From Paraburkholderia adhaesiva (GTDB taxonomy: Bacteria; Pseudomonadota; Gammaproteobacteria; Burkholderiales; Burkholderiaceae), in NCBI RefSeq assembly GCF_021390575.1, contig NZ_JAJEJQ010000001.1, positions 1,340,501 through 1,404,500 on the forward strand: a stretch of DNA of 64,000 bases, given 5' to 3'. The notes beneath the pieces were generated by a model. That model worked only from the letters and a program-made list of their open reading frames with translations, was not told the origin of the DNA and made no database searches. The translations under genes and the position numbers were made by a program. Of the stretch, positions 5,210-11,680 are shown one piece after another; positions within the stretch are counted from its first letter, which is position 1; the number at the start of each line of letters is the position of its first letter.

Positions 5210-5298
5210 CGCCCGAAAGTAATTGCGGTTGGCCCTGGCTCGTGTCGGGCAAGTCGCCCGCATGGTCCGATCAACAGCCCTTTTCCGCCCTTATGGGC

Positions 5299-5343
5299 AT
5301 GGGACCAGAGTAAGGCGCTAAAGCGCCAACTCTGTTCGACACA
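5299..5343 (+). promoter_or_regulatory. Structured 5' leader element of aceE (copy 1 of a paired element)
   Basis: A two-tier stem-loop just before the aceE Shine-Dalgarno. The outer stem pairs 5303-5311 with 5329-5337 (8 of 9 pairs, C/U mismatch at 5305/5335). The inner hairpin GGCGC-TAAA-GCGCC spans 5314-5327. The same element, identical at 39 of 44 positions plus one gap, lies before lpdA at 9854-9897. There one outer pair is replaced by a compensatory one (A5307-U5333 becomes G-C). The AGGAG Shine-Dalgarno begins about 6 nt after the stem. Conservation of both structure and position suggests a cis-acting RNA or a protein-binding site; the ligand is unknown. Confidence 0.7.
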
Positions 5344-5353
5344 GGAGACGAGC

Positions 5354-8050
5354 ATGTCCGCTGTACCCGACGAAGTCCTGAAGTACGTAGCCGCCGACAA
5401 GGACGAAGATCCCCAGGAAACCGCCGAATGGCTTGAAGCACTGGACGGCGTCATCTCGACGGTCGGTCCCGACCGCGCCCACTATTTGATCGAAAAGCAG
5501 ATCGAGTTCGCCCGCGTGCATGGCGAGCATCTGCCGTTCTCGGCGAACACGCCGTACATCAACACCATCCCGGTCGCCGACCAGGCACAGAATCCCGGCG
5601 ACCAGGACATCGAACACCGCATCCGTTCGTACACGCGCTGGAACGCCATGGCGATGGTGCTGCGCGCCGGCAAGCACACGAACGTCGGCGGCCACATCGC
5701 TTCGTTCGCCTCGGCCGCGACGCTCTATGACGTCGGCTATAACCACTTCTGGCGTGCGCCGTCCGCGGAACACGGCGGCGATCTCATCTTCGTGCAGGGC
5801 CACTCGTCGCCGGGCGTCTACTCGCGCGCGTTCCTGCTCGGCCGCCTGACGGTCAAGCAGCTCGACAACTTCCGTCAGGAAGTGGGCGGCGAGGGCATCC
5901 CGTCGTATCCGCACCCCTGGCTGATGCCGGACTTCTGGCAGTTCCCGACCGTCTCGATGGGCCTCGGCCCGATCATGGCGATCTACCAGGCGCGCTTCAT
6001 GAAGTACCTGCATGCGCGCGGCATTGCGAACACCAACGGCCGCAAGGTCTGGGCCTTCCTCGGCGACGGCGAAACGGATGAGCCGGAATCGCTCGGCGCG
6101 ATCGGCATGGCCGGCCGCGAGCGTCTCGACAACCTCGTGTTTGTCATCAACTGTAACCTGCAGCGTCTTGACGGCCCGGTGCGCGGCAACGGCAAGATCA
6201 TCCAGGAACTGGAAGGCGAATTCCGCGGCGCCGGCTGGAACGTCGTCAAGGTCATCTGGGGCAGCCGCTGGGACGCGCTGTTCGCACGCGACAAATCGGG
6301 CGCGCTGATGCGCCGCATGATGGAAGTCGTCGACGGCGAGTACCAGACGTACAAGTCGGAGTCGGGCGCGTACGTGCGCGAGCACTTCTTCAACTCGCCG
6401 GAACTGAAGGCGCTCGTCGCCGACTGGTCCGACGACGACATCTGGAACCTGAACCGCGGCGGCCATGATCCGCACAAGATCTACGCGGCGTTCCAGCAAG
6501 CCAGCAACGCCAAGGGCCAACCGACCGTCATCCTCGCGAAGACGATCAAGGGCTACGGCATGGGCGAAGCCGGCCAGGCGATGAACATCACCCACCAGCA
6601 GAAGAAGATGCAGGTGGATCAGCTCAAGAAGTTCCGCGACCAGTTCCGTCTGCCGATCACCGACGAACAGATCGTCGACGTGCCTTACCTCACGTTCGAG
6701 GAAGGCTCGAAGGAACTCGATTACATGCGCCAGAAGCGCATGGACCTCGGCGGCTACCTGCCTGCGCGCCGCCAGAAGGCGGAGTCGCTGCCGGTGCCTG
6801 CGCTCGATGCATTCGAGCCGCTGCTCAAGGGCTCGGGCGAAGGCCGCGAGATCTCGACGACGATGGCGTTCGTGCGGATCCTGAACATCCTGCTGAAGGA
6901 CAAGGCGCTCGGCAAGCGCGTCGTGCCGATCGTGCCGGACGAGTCGCGTACGTTCGGTATGGAAGGCCTCTTCCGCCAGATCGGCATCTGGAATCAGGAC
7001 GGCCAGAAGTACGTGCCGGAAGACTCCGACCAGCTGATGTTCTACAAGGAATCGCAGACCGGCCAGATCCTGCAGGAAGGCATCAACGAAGCCGGCGGCA
7101 TGGCCGACTGGATCGCCGCCGCGACGTCGTATTCGACGCACGGCGAGATCATGGTGCCGTTCTACATCTTCTACTCGATGTTCGGCATGCAGCGCATCGG
7201 CGACCTCGTGTGGGCGGCAGGCGACATGCGTTCGCGCGGCTTCCTGCTGGGCGGCACGGCAGGTCGTACGACGCTGAACGGCGAAGGCCTGCAGCACGAA
7301 GACGGCCACTCGCTGATGTGGGCAGCTTCGGTCCCGAACTGCGTGAGCTACGATCCGACGTTCGGCTATGAACTCGCCGTCATCATGCAGGACGGTCTGC
7401 GCCGCATGGTGCAGGACCAGGAAGACGTGTTCTATTACGTCACGGTGATGAACGAGAACTACGAGCACCCGGCGATTCCGCAGGGCGAGCAAGTGGCGGC
7501 GGACATCATCAAGGGCATGTACTCGTTCCGCAAGGGCGACGCGAACTCGAAGAATCCGCGCGTGCAACTGATGGGCGCGGGCACGATCCTGAACGAAGTG
7601 ATCGCCGCCGCCGACCTGCTCAAGAACGAGTGGGGCGTCGAAGCCGATATCTGGAGCGTGCCGAGCTTCACGGAACTCGCGCGTGAAGGTCACGAAATCG
7701 AGCGCTGGAACCTGCTGCATCCGAGCGAGCCGCGTCGCGAATCGCACGTCGAGAAGCTGCTCAAGGACACGCAAGGTCCGGTCATCGCATCGACGGACTA
7801 TGTGCGTGCCCTCGTTGACCAGATCCGCGGCCTCGTTCCGCGCAAGTTCGTGGTGCTCGGCACCGACGGTTTCGGCCGTTCGGATACGCGTGAAAAGCTG
7901 CGTCATTTCTTCGAAGTCGATCGTTACTGGACGACGGTTGCGGCGCTCAGCGCGCTCGCGGACGAAGGCAAGATCGAGCGCAAGGTTGTGGCAGACGCCA
8001 TTGCGAAGTACAACCTCGATCCGTCCAAACCCAACCCGATGACCGTCTAA
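5354..8050 (+). CDS. aceE: Pyruvate dehydrogenase E1 component, homodimeric
   Basis: An 898-residue thiamine-diphosphate enzyme that decarboxylates pyruvate and acetylates the lipoyl groups of AceF, the committed step from glycolysis to acetyl-CoA. The TPP motif begins GDGETDE at residues 237-243 and ends near VFVINCN at about 262-268. The segments YTRWNAMAMVLRA, HSSPGVYSRAF and GLQHEDGHS match the homodimeric (E. coli AceE-like) E1 class, and length is standard. I chose the ATG at 5354 (AGGAG six nt upstream, N-terminus MSAVPDEVLKYVAADKDEDP); an in-frame extension to 5192 would run through the structured leader. It is the first gene of the aceE-aceF-lpdA operon. Confidence 0.98.
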   Translation: MSAVPDEVLKYVAADKDEDPQETAEWLEALDGVISTVGPDRAHYLIEKQIEFARVHGEHLPFSANTPYINTIPVADQAQNPGDQDIEHRIRSYTRWNAMAMVLRAGKHTNVGGHIASFASAATLYDVGYNHFWRAPSAEHGGDLIFVQGHSSPGVYSRAFLLGRLTVKQLDNFRQEVGGEGIPSYPHPWLMPDFWQFPTVSMGLGPIMAIYQARFMKYLHARGIANTNGRKVWAFLGDGETDEPESLGAIGMAGRERLDNLVFVINCNLQRLDGPVRGNGKIIQELEGEFRGAGWNVVKVIWGSRWDALFARDKSGALMRRMMEVVDGEYQTYKSESGAYVREHFFNSPELKALVADWSDDDIWNLNRGGHDPHKIYAAFQQASNAKGQPTVILAKTIKGYGMGEAGQAMNITHQQKKMQVDQLKKFRDQFRLPITDEQIVDVPYLTFEEGSKELDYMRQKRMDLGGYLPARRQKAESLPVPALDAFEPLLKGSGEGREISTTMAFVRILNILLKDKALGKRVVPIVPDESRTFGMEGLFRQIGIWNQDGQKYVPEDSDQLMFYKESQTGQILQEGINEAGGMADWIAAATSYSTHGEIMVPFYIFYSMFGMQRIGDLVWAAGDMRSRGFLLGGTAGRTTLNGEGLQHEDGHSLMWAASVPNCVSYDPTFGYELAVIMQDGLRRMVQDQEDVFYYVTVMNENYEHPAIPQGEQVAADIIKGMYSFRKGDANSKNPRVQLMGAGTILNEVIAAADLLKNEWGVEADIWSVPSFTELAREGHEIERWNLLHPSEPRRESHVEKLLKDTQGPVIASTDYVRALVDQIRGLVPRKFVVLGTDGFGRSDTREKLRHFFEVDRYWTTVAALSALADEGKIERKVVADAIAKYNLDPSKPNPMTV

Positions 8051-8128: not shown

Positions 8129-9778
8129 ATGAGTCAAACGATCGAAGTGAAGGTGCCGGACATCGGCGATTACAAGGACATTCCTGTGATCGAGGTGCTG
8201 GTCAAGGCGGGTGATACCGTCGAAAAAGAGCAGTCGCTCATCACGCTGGAGTCCGACAAGGCGACCATGGACGTGCCGAGCCCTGCATCGGGCACGGTCA
8301 AGGAAGTGCGAGTCAAAGTAGGCGATAACGTGTCGGAAGGCGTGCTCGTCCTGGTGCTGGATGGCGCAGGCGCTGCCGCCGCGCCTGCACCGGTTGCGGC
8401 GAGCGCTGCAGCACCCGCACCGGCTGCGCCTGCAGTACCTGCTGCTGCACCGGCCGCTGCGAGTGGCGGCGTGCAAACGGTCAAGGTGCCGGACATCGGC
8501 GATTACAAGGGTGTGCCGGTCATCGAAATCGGCGTGAAGGTGGGCGACCGCATCGAGAAGGAACAGTCGCTCGTCACGCTCGAATCGGACAAGGCGACCA
8601 TGGACGTGCCGAGCCCGGTAGCCGGCGTCGTCAAGGAAATCCTGGTCAAGGTCGGCGATGAAGTTTCCGAAGGCACCGGTATCCTCGTGATCGAGGCCGA
8701 AGGTGCAGGCGCTCCCGCCGCCGCACCCGCGCCGAAGCAACCGGTCGAAGTGCCGTCGGACGCACCTGTGCCCGCAGCGGCCGCACCCGCGGCTGTCGCA
8801 CCGTCGGCACTGGCGCAGGCGCCGATCATTCCGGCAGGTGAAGGCGGCACGCGCCGTCCGAGCCATGCGTCGCCGTCCGTGCGCAAGTTCGCGCGTGTAC
8901 TCGGTGTCGATGTGTCGCGCGTGCAAGGTTCGGGTCCGAAGGGCCGCATTACCCAGGACGACGTCACCGCGTTCGTGAAGGGTGTCATGACGGGCGCGCT
9001 GGCTGCGCCGGCTGCCGCGGCTCCAGCCGGCGGCGCGGGCGGCGAGCTGAACCTGCTGCCCTGGCCGAAGGTCGATTTCACGAAGTTCGGTCCGATCGAT
9101 CCGAAGCCGCTCTCGCGCATCAAGAAGATCTCGGGCGCGAACCTGCACCGCAACTGGGTCATGATTCCGCACGTCACGAACAACGACGAAGCGGACATCA
9201 CCGACCTCGAAGCGCTGCGTGTGCAACTGAACAAGGAAAACGAGAAGTCGGGCGTGAAGTTCACGATGCTCGCGTTCGTCATCAAGGCCTGCGTCGGCGC
9301 GCTGAAGAAATTCCCGACTTTCAATGCGAGCCTCGACGGCGACAATCTCGTCTTCAAGCAGTACTACCACGTCGGTTTCGCAGCCGACACGCCGAACGGT
9401 CTCGTCGTTCCGGTGATCCGCGATGCGGACAAGAAGGGTCTCGTCGATATCGCGAAGGAAATGGCCGAACTGTCGAAGCTCGCGCGCGAAGGCAAGCTCA
9501 AGCCCGACCAGATGCAGGGCGGCTGCTTCTCGATCTCGTCGCTCGGCGGCATCGGTGGCACGAACTTCACGCCGATCATCAACGCGCCGGAAGTGGCCAT
9601 TCTCGGCCTGTCGCGCAGCGCGATGAAGCCGGTGTGGGACGGCAAGCAGTTCGTGCCGCGCCTCACGCTGCCGCTGTCGCTGTCGTACGACCACCGTGTG
9701 ATCGACGGCGCGGAAGCTGCACGCTTTAACGCGTACCTCGTCTCGATCCTCGGCGATTTCCGCCGCGTGATCCTGTAA
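8129..9778 (+). CDS. aceF: Pyruvate dehydrogenase E2, dihydrolipoyllysine acetyltransferase
   Basis: A 549-residue core subunit of the PDH complex that transfers acetyl groups from lipoyl arms to CoA. Two N-terminal lipoyl domains carry modifiable lysines K44 and K155, each in ESDKATMDVP. They are joined by Ala/Pro-rich flexible linkers. Next comes a peripheral-subunit-binding domain (about residues 250-290, SHASPSVRKFARVLGVD, GPKGRITQDDV), then the catalytic acetyltransferase domain with the active-site motif DHRVIDGAEAARF near residue 520. The start at 8129 follows CCGGAG and gives MSQTIEVKVPDIGDY. The 78-nt gap from aceE holds a large hairpin, which might adjust E1:E2 stoichiometry (inference). 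Confidence 0.98.
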   Translation: MSQTIEVKVPDIGDYKDIPVIEVLVKAGDTVEKEQSLITLESDKATMDVPSPASGTVKEVRVKVGDNVSEGVLVLVLDGAGAAAAPAPVAASAAAPAPAAPAVPAAAPAAASGGVQTVKVPDIGDYKGVPVIEIGVKVGDRIEKEQSLVTLESDKATMDVPSPVAGVVKEILVKVGDEVSEGTGILVIEAEGAGAPAAAPAPKQPVEVPSDAPVPAAAAPAAVAPSALAQAPIIPAGEGGTRRPSHASPSVRKFARVLGVDVSRVQGSGPKGRITQDDVTAFVKGVMTGALAAPAAAAPAGGAGGELNLLPWPKVDFTKFGPIDPKPLSRIKKISGANLHRNWVMIPHVTNNDEADITDLEALRVQLNKENEKSGVKFTMLAFVIKACVGALKKFPTFNASLDGDNLVFKQYYHVGFAADTPNGLVVPVIRDADKKGLVDIAKEMAELSKLAREGKLKPDQMQGGCFSISSLGGIGGTNFTPIINAPEVAILGLSRSAMKPVWDGKQFVPRLTLPLSLSYDHRVIDGAEAARFNAYLVSILGDFRRVIL

Positions 9779-9791
9779 AGCCGCTTCGCTG

Positions 9792-9829
9792 ACCGGCTTG
9801 CCGCCCACTGCGTAGGGCGGCAAGCCGGT
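9792..9829 (+). other. Perfect 15-bp hairpin in the aceF-lpdA gap
   Basis: 9792-9806 is the exact reverse complement of 9815-9829 with an 8-nt loop. It starts 14 nt after the aceF stop codon and is not followed by a T-run, so it may act as a 3' mRNA stabiliser or processing site rather than a terminator. The lpdA leader element follows 25 nt later. Confidence 0.75.
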
Positions 9830-9853
9830 AGCTTCCGTCGATCTAGCAAAGTA

Positions 9854-9897
9854 ATGGGACCGCAGTAAGCGCTAAAGCGCCGACTCCGGTCGACACA
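9854..9897 (+). promoter_or_regulatory. Structured 5' leader element of lpdA (copy 2 of a paired element)
   Basis: The same two-tier stem-loop as before aceE. The outer stem pairs 9858-9866 with 9883-9891 (8 of 9 pairs, C/C mismatch at 9863/9886). The inner hairpin GCGC-TAAA-GCGC spans 9869-9880. It is followed by GACACA and the AAGGGG Shine-Dalgarno (9897-9902). Of five substitutions relative to the aceE copy, two form a compensatory pair (G9862-C9887 in place of A-U). aceF, between the two, has no copy. Confidence 0.7.
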
Positions 9898-9907
9898 AGG
9901 GGACACT

Positions 9908-11680
9908 ATGAGTCTCGTCGAAGTGAAAGTGCCGGACATCGGCGACTTCAAGGACATCGATGTCATCGAGGTCAATATCAAGGCCGGCGACGTCATCGAA
10001 AAAGAACAGACGCTGCTCGCGCTCGAGTCGGACAAGGCCACGATGGAAGTGCCGAGCGACGTCGCGGGCACCGTCAAGGAAGTGAAGATCAAGCAGGGCG
10101 ACAAGGTCTCGCAAGGCACCGTGATCGCGCTGGTTGAGGTTTCCGCTGGCGCAGCTGCGGTCGCGGCTGCACCTGCTCCGAAGGCGGAAGCGCCGAAGCA
10201 GGAAACACCGAAGGCCGCGGCATCCGCACCCACACCCGCACCTGCGGCGGGCAGCTACAGCGGTGGCGCTGACATCGAATGCGACATGCTCGTACTGGGC
10301 GCTGGCCCTGGCGGCTACTCGGCTGCGTTCCGCGCAGCCGACCTCGGCATGAAGACCGTGCTGGTCGAGCGGTATTCGACACTCGGTGGCGTGTGCCTGA
10401 ACGTCGGCTGCATTCCGTCGAAGGCGCTTCTGCACACGGCGCTCGTTGTTGAGGAAGCCGAAGCACTGGCCGCGCATGGCATCACGTTCGGCAAGCCGCA
10501 GGTCGATCTCGACAAACTCCGCGACTTCAAGTCCGGCGTCGTCAAGAAACTGACGAGCGGTCTCGCGGGCATGGCGAAGGCGCGCAAGGTCGAGGTCGTG
10601 ACCGGCCTCGGTTCGTTCGTCGATCCGCACCACATGGAAGTGGTGGGCGAGGGCGGCAAGAAGGTCGTGAAGTTCGCGAAGGCGATCATCGCGGCCGGTT
10701 CGCAGGCGGTGAAGCTGCCGTTCATGCCCGAAGATCCGCGTGTGGTCGACTCGACCGGTGCGCTCGAACTGCGCCAGATCCCGCAGAAGATGCTCGTGAT
10801 CGGCGGCGGCATCATCGGCCTCGAAATGGCGACGGTCTATTCGACGCTCGGCGCGCAGATCGATGTCGTGGAAATGCTCGACGGCCTGATGGCCGGTGCG
10901 GACCGCGATCTGGTGAAGGTCTGGGAAAAGTACAACGCGAATCGCTTCGCGAACGTCATGCTCAAGACGAAGACGACGAAGGCCGAGGCGAAAGCCGACG
11001 GCATCTACGTCACGTTCGAAGGCGAGAAGGCGCCCGCGGAGCCGCAGCGCTATGACCTCGTGCTGGTCGCCGTCGGACGCTCGCCGAACGGCAAGAAGAT
11101 CGGCGCAGACAAGGCTGGCGTCGCGGTAACCGATCGTGGTTTCATCGACGTCGACAAGCAGATGCGCACCAACGTGCCGCACATCTTCGCGATCGGCGAC
11201 GTCGTCGGGCAGCCGATGCTCGCGCACAAGGCCGTGCATGAGGGCCACGTGGCGGCGGAAGCGGCGCATGGCGAGAAGGCATACTTCGACGCGCTGCAGA
11301 TTCCGTCGGTGGCCTACACCGATCCGGAAGTCGCCTGGGCCGGCAAGACCGAAGACCAGTGCAAGGCCGAAGGCATCAAGTACGGCAAGGCAGTGTTCCC
11401 GTGGGCCGCATCGGGCCGCGCGATCGCGAACGGCCGCGATGAAGGCTTCACGAAGCTGATCTTCGACGAAGAGACGCATCGCGTGATCGGCGGTGGCATC
11501 GTCGGCCTGAACGCCGGTGACCTCATCAGCGAAGTCTGTCTCGCCGTCGAGATGGGCGCGGACGCGGAGGACATCGGCAAGACGATCCACCCGCACCCGA
11601 CGCTGGGCGAATCGATCGGCATGGCCGCCGAACTGTACGAAGGCGTCTGCACGGACCTTCCGCCGCAAAAGAAAAAGTAA
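9908..11680 (+). CDS. lpdA: Dihydrolipoyl dehydrogenase (E3) with N-terminal lipoyl domain
   Basis: A 590-residue FAD enzyme that reoxidises dihydrolipoyl groups of PDH with NAD+. Residues 1-80 form a lipoyl domain (lysine 43 in LESDKATMEVP), joined by an Ala/Pro/Lys linker to the flavoprotein. The flavoprotein has the FAD motif LGAGPGGYSAAFRAAD, redox-active disulfide CLNVGCIPSK, NAD motif IGGGIIGLEMA, the second FAD motif IFAIGDVVGQPMLAHKA and the C-terminal catalytic HPHPTLGES. Such lipoyl-E3 fusions are known in Neisseria and beta-proteobacteria. The ATG at 9908 follows AAGGGG. It is the last gene of the operon, ended by the hairpin at 11705. Confidence 0.97.
   Translation: MSLVEVKVPDIGDFKDIDVIEVNIKAGDVIEKEQTLLALESDKATMEVPSDVAGTVKEVKIKQGDKVSQGTVIALVEVSAGAAAVAAAPAPKAEAPKQETPKAAASAPTPAPAAGSYSGGADIECDMLVLGAGPGGYSAAFRAADLGMKTVLVERYSTLGGVCLNVGCIPSKALLHTALVVEEAEALAAHGITFGKPQVDLDKLRDFKSGVVKKLTSGLAGMAKARKVEVVTGLGSFVDPHHMEVVGEGGKKVVKFAKAIIAAGSQAVKLPFMPEDPRVVDSTGALELRQIPQKMLVIGGGIIGLEMATVYSTLGAQIDVVEMLDGLMAGADRDLVKVWEKYNANRFANVMLKTKTTKAEAKADGIYVTFEGEKAPAEPQRYDLVLVAVGRSPNGKKIGADKAGVAVTDRGFIDVDKQMRTNVPHIFAIGDVVGQPMLAHKAVHEGHVAAEAAHGEKAYFDALQIPSVAYTDPEVAWAGKTEDQCKAEGIKYGKAVFPWAASGRAIANGRDEGFTKLIFDEETHRVIGGGIVGLNAGDLISEVCLAVEMGADAEDIGKTIHPHPTLGESIGMAAELYEGVCTDLPPQKKK

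Follow-up and report, generated by a model that had tools for sequence, protein, structure and literature searches.

The leaders before aceE and lpdA in Paraburkholderia adhaesiva are probably copies of a dispersed palindromic repeat lying mostly directly 5' of Shine-Dalgarno sequences

Introduction

Short palindromic repeats are usually regarded as intergenic clutter. CGTC REP families without a dedicated transposase have been described (PMC3733652, in its sections on these elements), and a translational role has been suggested for the TAACTGA repeats (PMC4679880, in the part dealing with them). Candidate structures also lie near dehydrogenase genes, as do the hairpins reported here: sucA and sucA-II (Rfam; sucA also in the relevant part of PMC4603805), neither of which the present repeat matches. 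The aceE motif of Weinberg 2010 is a candidate structure too, yet it is listed for gamma-proteobacteria, and the table of the same study gives Burkholderiales-1 the RNA status '?' and no Rfam number (PMC2864571, motif entries). Judged from that table entry alone, Burkholderiales-1 could be the same repeat as ours.

A covariance-model comparison with Rfam 15, sucA and sucA-II included, agrees with the original prediction for this locus in placing the element apart from the described families: it reaches no family at gathering and has chance matches only below it. The search at gathering returned one match, a TPP riboswitch in locus L206 (777-906, minus strand), near one array and outside the repeat. 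Word matching, as opposed to sequence matching, in open-licence PMC papers found no description of the repeat, nor did a word search of PMC4603805 turn up any reference to it.

Results and Discussion

Two copies in the pyruvate dehydrogenase region

By the window we mean the whole 64-kb stretch of DNA that was analysed. Its aceE-aceF-lpdA region contains the following features.

5295..5341, + strand: repeat copy before aceE (covariance model R1, 59.0 bits, E 4.9e-13; also from the fold)
5343..5347, + strand: aceE Shine-Dalgarno AGGAG, read from the sequence, 1 base past the repeat
5354..8050, + strand: aceE, pyruvate dehydrogenase E1 (Pfam PDH_E1_M, E 2.7e-109)
8129..9778, + strand: aceF, dihydrolipoyl acetyltransferase E2 (Pfam 2-oxoacid_dh, E 1.1e-80 over 8132-9778; predicted start)
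9850..9895, + strand: copy of the repeat between aceF and lpdA (covariance model R1, 56.4 bits, E 2.3e-12)
9897..9902, + strand: lpdA Shine-Dalgarno AAGGGG, read from the sequence, 1 base past the repeat
9908..11680, + strand: lpdA, dihydrolipoamide dehydrogenase E3 (Pfam Pyr_redox_2, E 2.6e-62)

When 5299-5343 was realigned with 9854-9897 the result matched the original prediction in its 39 identities and single gap, with 5 mismatches, and the pairs that it named are correct: A5307-T5333 corresponds to G9862-C9887, the unpaired C5305/T5335 to C9860-G9889, and the pair G5308-C5332 to a C9863/C9886 mismatch. In the aceE copy an outer stem (5303-5311 with 5329-5337) encloses an inner hairpin with a TAAA loop, and the copy finishes in TCGACA. 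At both genes this end lies 1 base before the Shine-Dalgarno (5341 to 5343 and 9895 to 9897) rather than about 6 nt before it as first described; about 6 nt is the spacing from Shine-Dalgarno to ATG at aceE and lpdA. Folded as short pieces, the aceE and lpdA copies have z-scores of -4.0 and -3.1, with 0/200 and 2/200 shuffles equally low; inclusion of flanks (73 and 76 nt) weakens the signal to z -2.8 and -1.9, a value reached by 2/200 and 9/200 shuffles. A covariance-model search of the window returned the aceE and lpdA copies, the sole further match being the second palindrome read in reverse (E 0.087).

A separate long inverted repeat occupies 9787-9833 of the window, in the aceF-lpdA gap just upstream of the lpdA copy; its Rfam matches are to microRNAs below gathering, and it is possibly a terminator or another repeat. 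The aceE copy falls in a subfamily (L239, L198, window 5280-5300) in which a GCCC-N4-GGGC mini-hairpin at the 5' end replaces GCTTTGC.

A dispersed family

An exact pattern built from both copies has 8 matches in the 6.97-Mb genome of the same strain, and its reversed control has 0. The covariance model, with 46 positions and 14 pairs, gave 117 matches there at E <=0.1 (150 of 3085 candidates scored). After removal of 13 palindromes read in reverse and of the two full-length matches with the weakest scores, at least 102 copies in 61 arrays remained, each an imperfect palindrome of 46-49 nt. "Two copies in one operon" was therefore too narrow a description, the pair being 2 of these, and recent duplication within the pdh operon only is ruled out by the genome-wide copies. 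The pair in the window is an ordinary instance of a dispersed palindrome family. As far as sequence comparison can tell, both leaders are probably copies of one repeat, which lies mostly directly 5' of a sense-strand Shine-Dalgarno and is likely to be a mobile DNA element of the non-autonomous kind.

By pattern, the repeat occurs in 30 of 59 genomes, that is in 30/35 of the same genus (own included) and 0/24 of other families, with the control at 0 throughout. The model finds it in 46/120 genomes of the family, spread over 8/25 genera; this survey used stricter filters and scored at most 51 candidates per genome, so that its copy counts are lower bounds. Plasmids carry it as well, in 26 records (Paraburkholderia 10, Caballeronia 8, Burkholderia 8), and 25 of the 26 have no listed feature under the best match, the gene table being incomplete and 1 record unannotated. 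The nearest genome, G009, holds 95 copies in 55 arrays. Of the 61 arrays in our strain, 53 have downstream sequence in common with a G009 array, and aceE is among the 8 partnerless ones. Copy number and content are much altered between the two genomes, yet the downstream sequences are 91-98% identical.

The two sites in the window differ in how widely they are occupied. Among the best 80 of 594 related aceE loci no alignment score exceeds 36, the window's two copies scoring 72 and 76, and in side-by-side alignments the aceE copy is absent in 25 relatives and the lpdA copy in 24. When 30 genus loci per site (own included) were searched by covariance model, the aceE copy was present in 1/30 and the lpdA copy in 5/30, the four relatives being L364-L367. 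At aceE, 56/57 relatives align only from window position 5342 or 5339 onward; absence was judged by model search at 29 loci and solely from the start of the alignment in the other 28/57 relatives. The aceE and lpdA copies would then be two separate insertions, the lpdA one more widely shared.

Position at the Shine-Dalgarno

We counted an array as preceding a gene if a start codon lay <=25 nt from the array end, with a Shine-Dalgarno-like box and an ORF of >=60 codons. By this rule 39/61 own arrays and 34/55 G009 arrays pass, against 1/61 and 1/55 on the opposite strand and 28/610 and 26/550 when positions within these loci were shifted. If a split host copy may follow the array with its 3' half-arm, the count rises by 9 own and 8 G009 arrays (48 and 42; this extension has no matched control). 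Adjacency is not universal: 13/61 own and 13/55 G009 arrays fail even with the split-copy extension. In 22 loci from other genomes (one per genome, four same-genus) 16 pass, including L412 that does so only through the extension, and 6 fail, with 1 on the opposite strand. The 20 identical copies fetched from genome G114 give 0/20, and 18 lie inside a larger composite repeat; of the other two, one (L454) is followed by CAGGAG and an ATG that opens a frame of 45 codons.

Gene-family searches covered 46 of the 54 called downstream genes plus aceE and lpdA. Rule-passing arrays precede rodA, ppk2, ackA, ctaD, cfa, ogt, glgC, nadA, coaBC, gcvP, atpC, atpG and paaB, where part of the gene naming is our reading of the family matches. 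No common pathway is visible among the searched genes. A pathway regulon is rejected, the downstream genes searched being functionally unrelated.

Arrays and their polarity

Copies stand in tandem with a 49-nt period and the same orientation, and are also nested within the apical loops of other copies, the nested ones having GCT on both sides. In arrays of at least 2 copies the 3'-most copy has strictly the highest model score in 22/26 cases in our strain and 23/27 in G009, where chance would give 11.1 and 12.0; each genome has 2 ties, and the 5'-most copy alone scores highest in 1 and 2 arrays, respectively. The same polarity appears in arrays of two or more copies that do not pass the gene rule, both in our strain (6/7: L202, L204, L214, L226, L229 and L237, with L224 a tie) and in G009 (4/6: L317, L332, L347 and L362, with L344 and L360 ties). 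Combined, the 13 multi-copy arrays without a gene start have the 3'-most copy strictly best in 10 and tied in 3. Since arrays without a gene start show the polarity too, growth at the 3' end is favoured over selection on the gene-proximal copy alone.

In two other genomes a composite repeat exists in an empty form, with 2 nt between GGGGGG and GCGAACGAA (28 places), and in a filled form with 50 nt between the same boundaries, about 48 nt having been added. No target duplication is evident in this one empty/filled comparison, but its 5' edge is variable, reading either AGCT or CGCT. The larger composite repeat, CCCCCTCGGGGGG...GAACGAAnGTGAGCGTGGGGG (L436-L455 in G114, and L426-L435; one genus), hosts the element in 18/20 fetched copies and exists without it too.

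Search for a mobilising enzyme

A search for relatives of Y1 transposases found no mobilising enzyme. Our genome encodes two weak Y1 relatives (L119:868-1887, minus strand, and L120:1459-2193, plus strand), which fall below the Pfam cut-off as whole proteins; inspected by eye against what we take to be the HUH motif, they lack its histidines. No repeat copy scoring >=34 lies within 1.5 kb of either. Movement of the repeat as a REP by a flanking RAYT is thus unsupported in our genome, the Y1 relatives being weak, free of flanking copies and without a visible HUH motif. Across the family, a Y1 relative, mostly weak and single, occurs in 104/120 genomes, namely in 46/46 repeat-bearing and 58/74 other genomes (Fisher p 0.0005). 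Because 14 of the 16 genomes that lack a Y1 relative fall below 3 Mb, genome reduction may explain the association; a Y1 protein acting in trans is a possible mover.

Covariation without a clear RNA signature

The consensus ends are GCATGGG and TCGACA on one strand and TGTCGA and CCCATGC on the other, and GACA is conserved in 54/61 array ends. Between them the stem sequence is highly variable with pairing retained: in an alignment of 67 copies (of 69 listed, one exact duplicate and one copy carrying a long insertion were left out) 91.5% of the cells in the 14 pairs are paired. A change on both sides is seen in 89 cells, against 24.5 in shuffled alignments (0/500 reach the value) and 13-17 with the partner slid. 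The number of pairs with both-side change, 9 versus 7.6 shuffled, is unremarkable (reached by 78/500). A comparison of orthologous copies, made on the 32 Shine-Dalgarno-adjacent terminal copies out of 53 matched sites, has both-side changes in 20/413 pair cells versus 3.9 expected, 18/20 of them Watson-Crick in both species; the 40 one-sided changes include 17 through G.T and 23 through other states. These paired changes at orthologous sites indicate that the palindrome is maintained.

Selection at the RNA level should leave an excess of G.U, which is expected neither under upkeep at the DNA level nor under palindrome-correcting mutation. Over 232 distinct copies we counted 122 G.T versus 105 A.C (p 0.29) with pair 21-35 excluded; that pair is mostly A-T or A.C (69 A.C, 6 G.T), and with it the totals become 128 G.T versus 174 A.C. 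Shine-Dalgarno-adjacent terminal copies (75) have 28 versus 30 (p 0.90), and the 118 other copies 79 versus 61 (p 0.15). A smaller set of 66 distinct copies had given 35 versus 22, an excess that shrank at 232 copies. As G.T and A.C are about equally common, the covariation does not single out RNA; the covariation whose absence would have spoken against the original prediction is strong, with no clear RNA-strand bias.

A probable mobile palindrome and its alternatives

The mobile-element reading may be put in the form of a mechanism. An enzyme would copy or move the hairpin as DNA, new copies would join at the 3' boundary, beside the purine-rich Shine-Dalgarno, and arrays would thereby grow toward the start codon. 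The palindrome would be kept since the DNA hairpin is the substrate, a suggestion that draws on the similar frequencies of G.T and A.C intermediates. Instead of a preference for insertion at this place, the element may simply survive just 5' of the Shine-Dalgarno. With more hesitation, we suggest that the hairpin may cap the ribosome site in the mRNA and that at some genes (lpdA, atpG) it may be kept for tuning translation of the cistron or mRNA stability. The combined proposal, a self-nesting palindrome that targets Shine-Dalgarno sequences in one orientation, in arrays growing toward the start, and so supplies many mRNAs across the genome with leader hairpins, some of them (atpG, lpdA) lasting, is offered tentatively.

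Part of the pattern might come from mutation instead of selection, with template switching in quasi-palindromes, or conversion or replacement among copies, perfecting both arms. The predominance of changes that are Watson-Crick in both species (18/20) and the balance of G.T and A.C suit such a process, as does array content that differs greatly between species whose downstream sequences are 91-98% identical, but it leaves dispersal, Shine-Dalgarno adjacency and orientation unexplained. We consider it somewhat unlikely as the source of the covariation, and it would act alongside the mobile-element explanation rather than replace it.

A post-transcriptional regulon, in which the mRNA leader is bound by an RNA-binding protein or acts via its stability alone, selection favours it before the Shine-Dalgarno of many genes and dispersal is a by-product, draws its support from the lasting sites. 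At lpdA the hairpin is found in five genomes, in three of which (L365-L367) the inner stem is rewritten with pairing intact. At atpG hairpins occur in 9/9 species: 3/9 carry the repeat by model (L232 in our strain, L457 and L458), and the other six (L456, L459-L463) have a hairpin of different sequence in the corresponding position ahead of the atpG Shine-Dalgarno, resembling the repeat in outline with an outer stem, a small internal mismatch and an inner stem. In none of the nine are more than 4/300 shuffles as stable. Element-free aceE leaders of the same length show no stand-out folding (z -1.6 to 1.6 in 8 of the 29 computed). The persistence at lpdA and the presence of an atpG hairpin in every species fit function as well as mobility, and some copies may be used by their genes, for example at atpG. 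Sense-strand placement at the Shine-Dalgarno, paired changes that keep the stem at orthologous sites and a higher share of Watson-Crick cells in Shine-Dalgarno-adjacent terminal copies than in others (91.2% versus 85.6%) point the same way, and some sites precede genes that, by the usual operon order, would be internal cistrons (atpG, atpC, lpdA). Against a regulon stand the lack of a clear G.U excess over A.C in all three tests (p 0.29, 0.90, 0.15), the functionally unrelated downstream genes, the 3'-end polarity that holds in arrays without a gene start, the unconserved aceE site and the copies found inside another repeat. On balance this explanation is unlikely.

A DNA operator, with the palindrome bound by a protein that acts in transcription or in organising the chromosome, would account for a palindrome whose intermediates lack strand bias and for its conserved end (GACA, 54/61). 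A promoter operator would, however, be unusual at the Shine-Dalgarno, where the repeat also stands within operons, and pairing is retained across widely differing stem sequences; we regard a DNA operator as very improbable. Scarcely credible is a metabolite-sensing leader coordinating E1 and E3 of pyruvate dehydrogenase, suggested by two copies in one operon that both stand at a Shine-Dalgarno, in view of about 100 further copies before unrelated genes, an aceE copy in 1/30 loci and a single simple hairpin without an Rfam match.

The cis-acting leader of the original prediction survives as a real co-varying hairpin directly 5' of both Shine-Dalgarnos, whereas coordination of E1 and E3 and sensing of a pyruvate, CoA, lipoate or thiamine metabolite are unsupported, as the same element precedes many unrelated genes and the aceE site is occupied in 1/30 loci. 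A sensor that belongs to the pdh operon alone is probably not what the two hairpins represent.

The family sits mostly at the ribosome site before dozens of metabolic and energy genes in the Burkholderia group; atpG, atpC, gcvP, ctaD, aceE and lpdA are examples in our genome. If insertion there is preferred, the repeat would be a mobile element that targets Shine-Dalgarno sequences and would naturally give rise to expression variants. The case also calls for caution in reading a co-varying hairpin found before several genes as a riboswitch: the covariation in this family lacks the excess of G.U that RNA should show.

Comparison with known systems

A metabolite riboswitch combines a complex fold with one pathway; here a simple hairpin precedes unrelated genes. 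The repeat has the features of a REP in being a short palindrome with many extragenic copies (at least 102, in 61 arrays). It resembles the GTAG and CGTC REP elements, a 20-40 bp class of dispersed extragenic palindromes of which CGTC is described as having no dedicated transposase (the search here found none either), but neither tag stands at the foot of its consensus; it also differs from the REP elements in lying mostly before genes at the Shine-Dalgarno and in forming same-orientation, nested arrays of 49-nt period (PMC3733652, as far as its sections on these elements go). With bacterial MITEs it shares being small, non-autonomous, dispersed and structured (PMC10969869), whereas the target duplication of MITEs is not evident for the repeat in the single empty/filled comparison. 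The words Shine-Dalgarno, ribosome binding, start codon and nested do not occur in the MITE review (PMC10969869). The TAACTGA repeats of Beggiatoaceae likewise lie a few nt upstream of the start codons of functionally unrelated genes, but these are heptamer direct repeats in other lineages, whereas the repeat described here is a palindrome (PMC4679880, in its treatment of the repeats).
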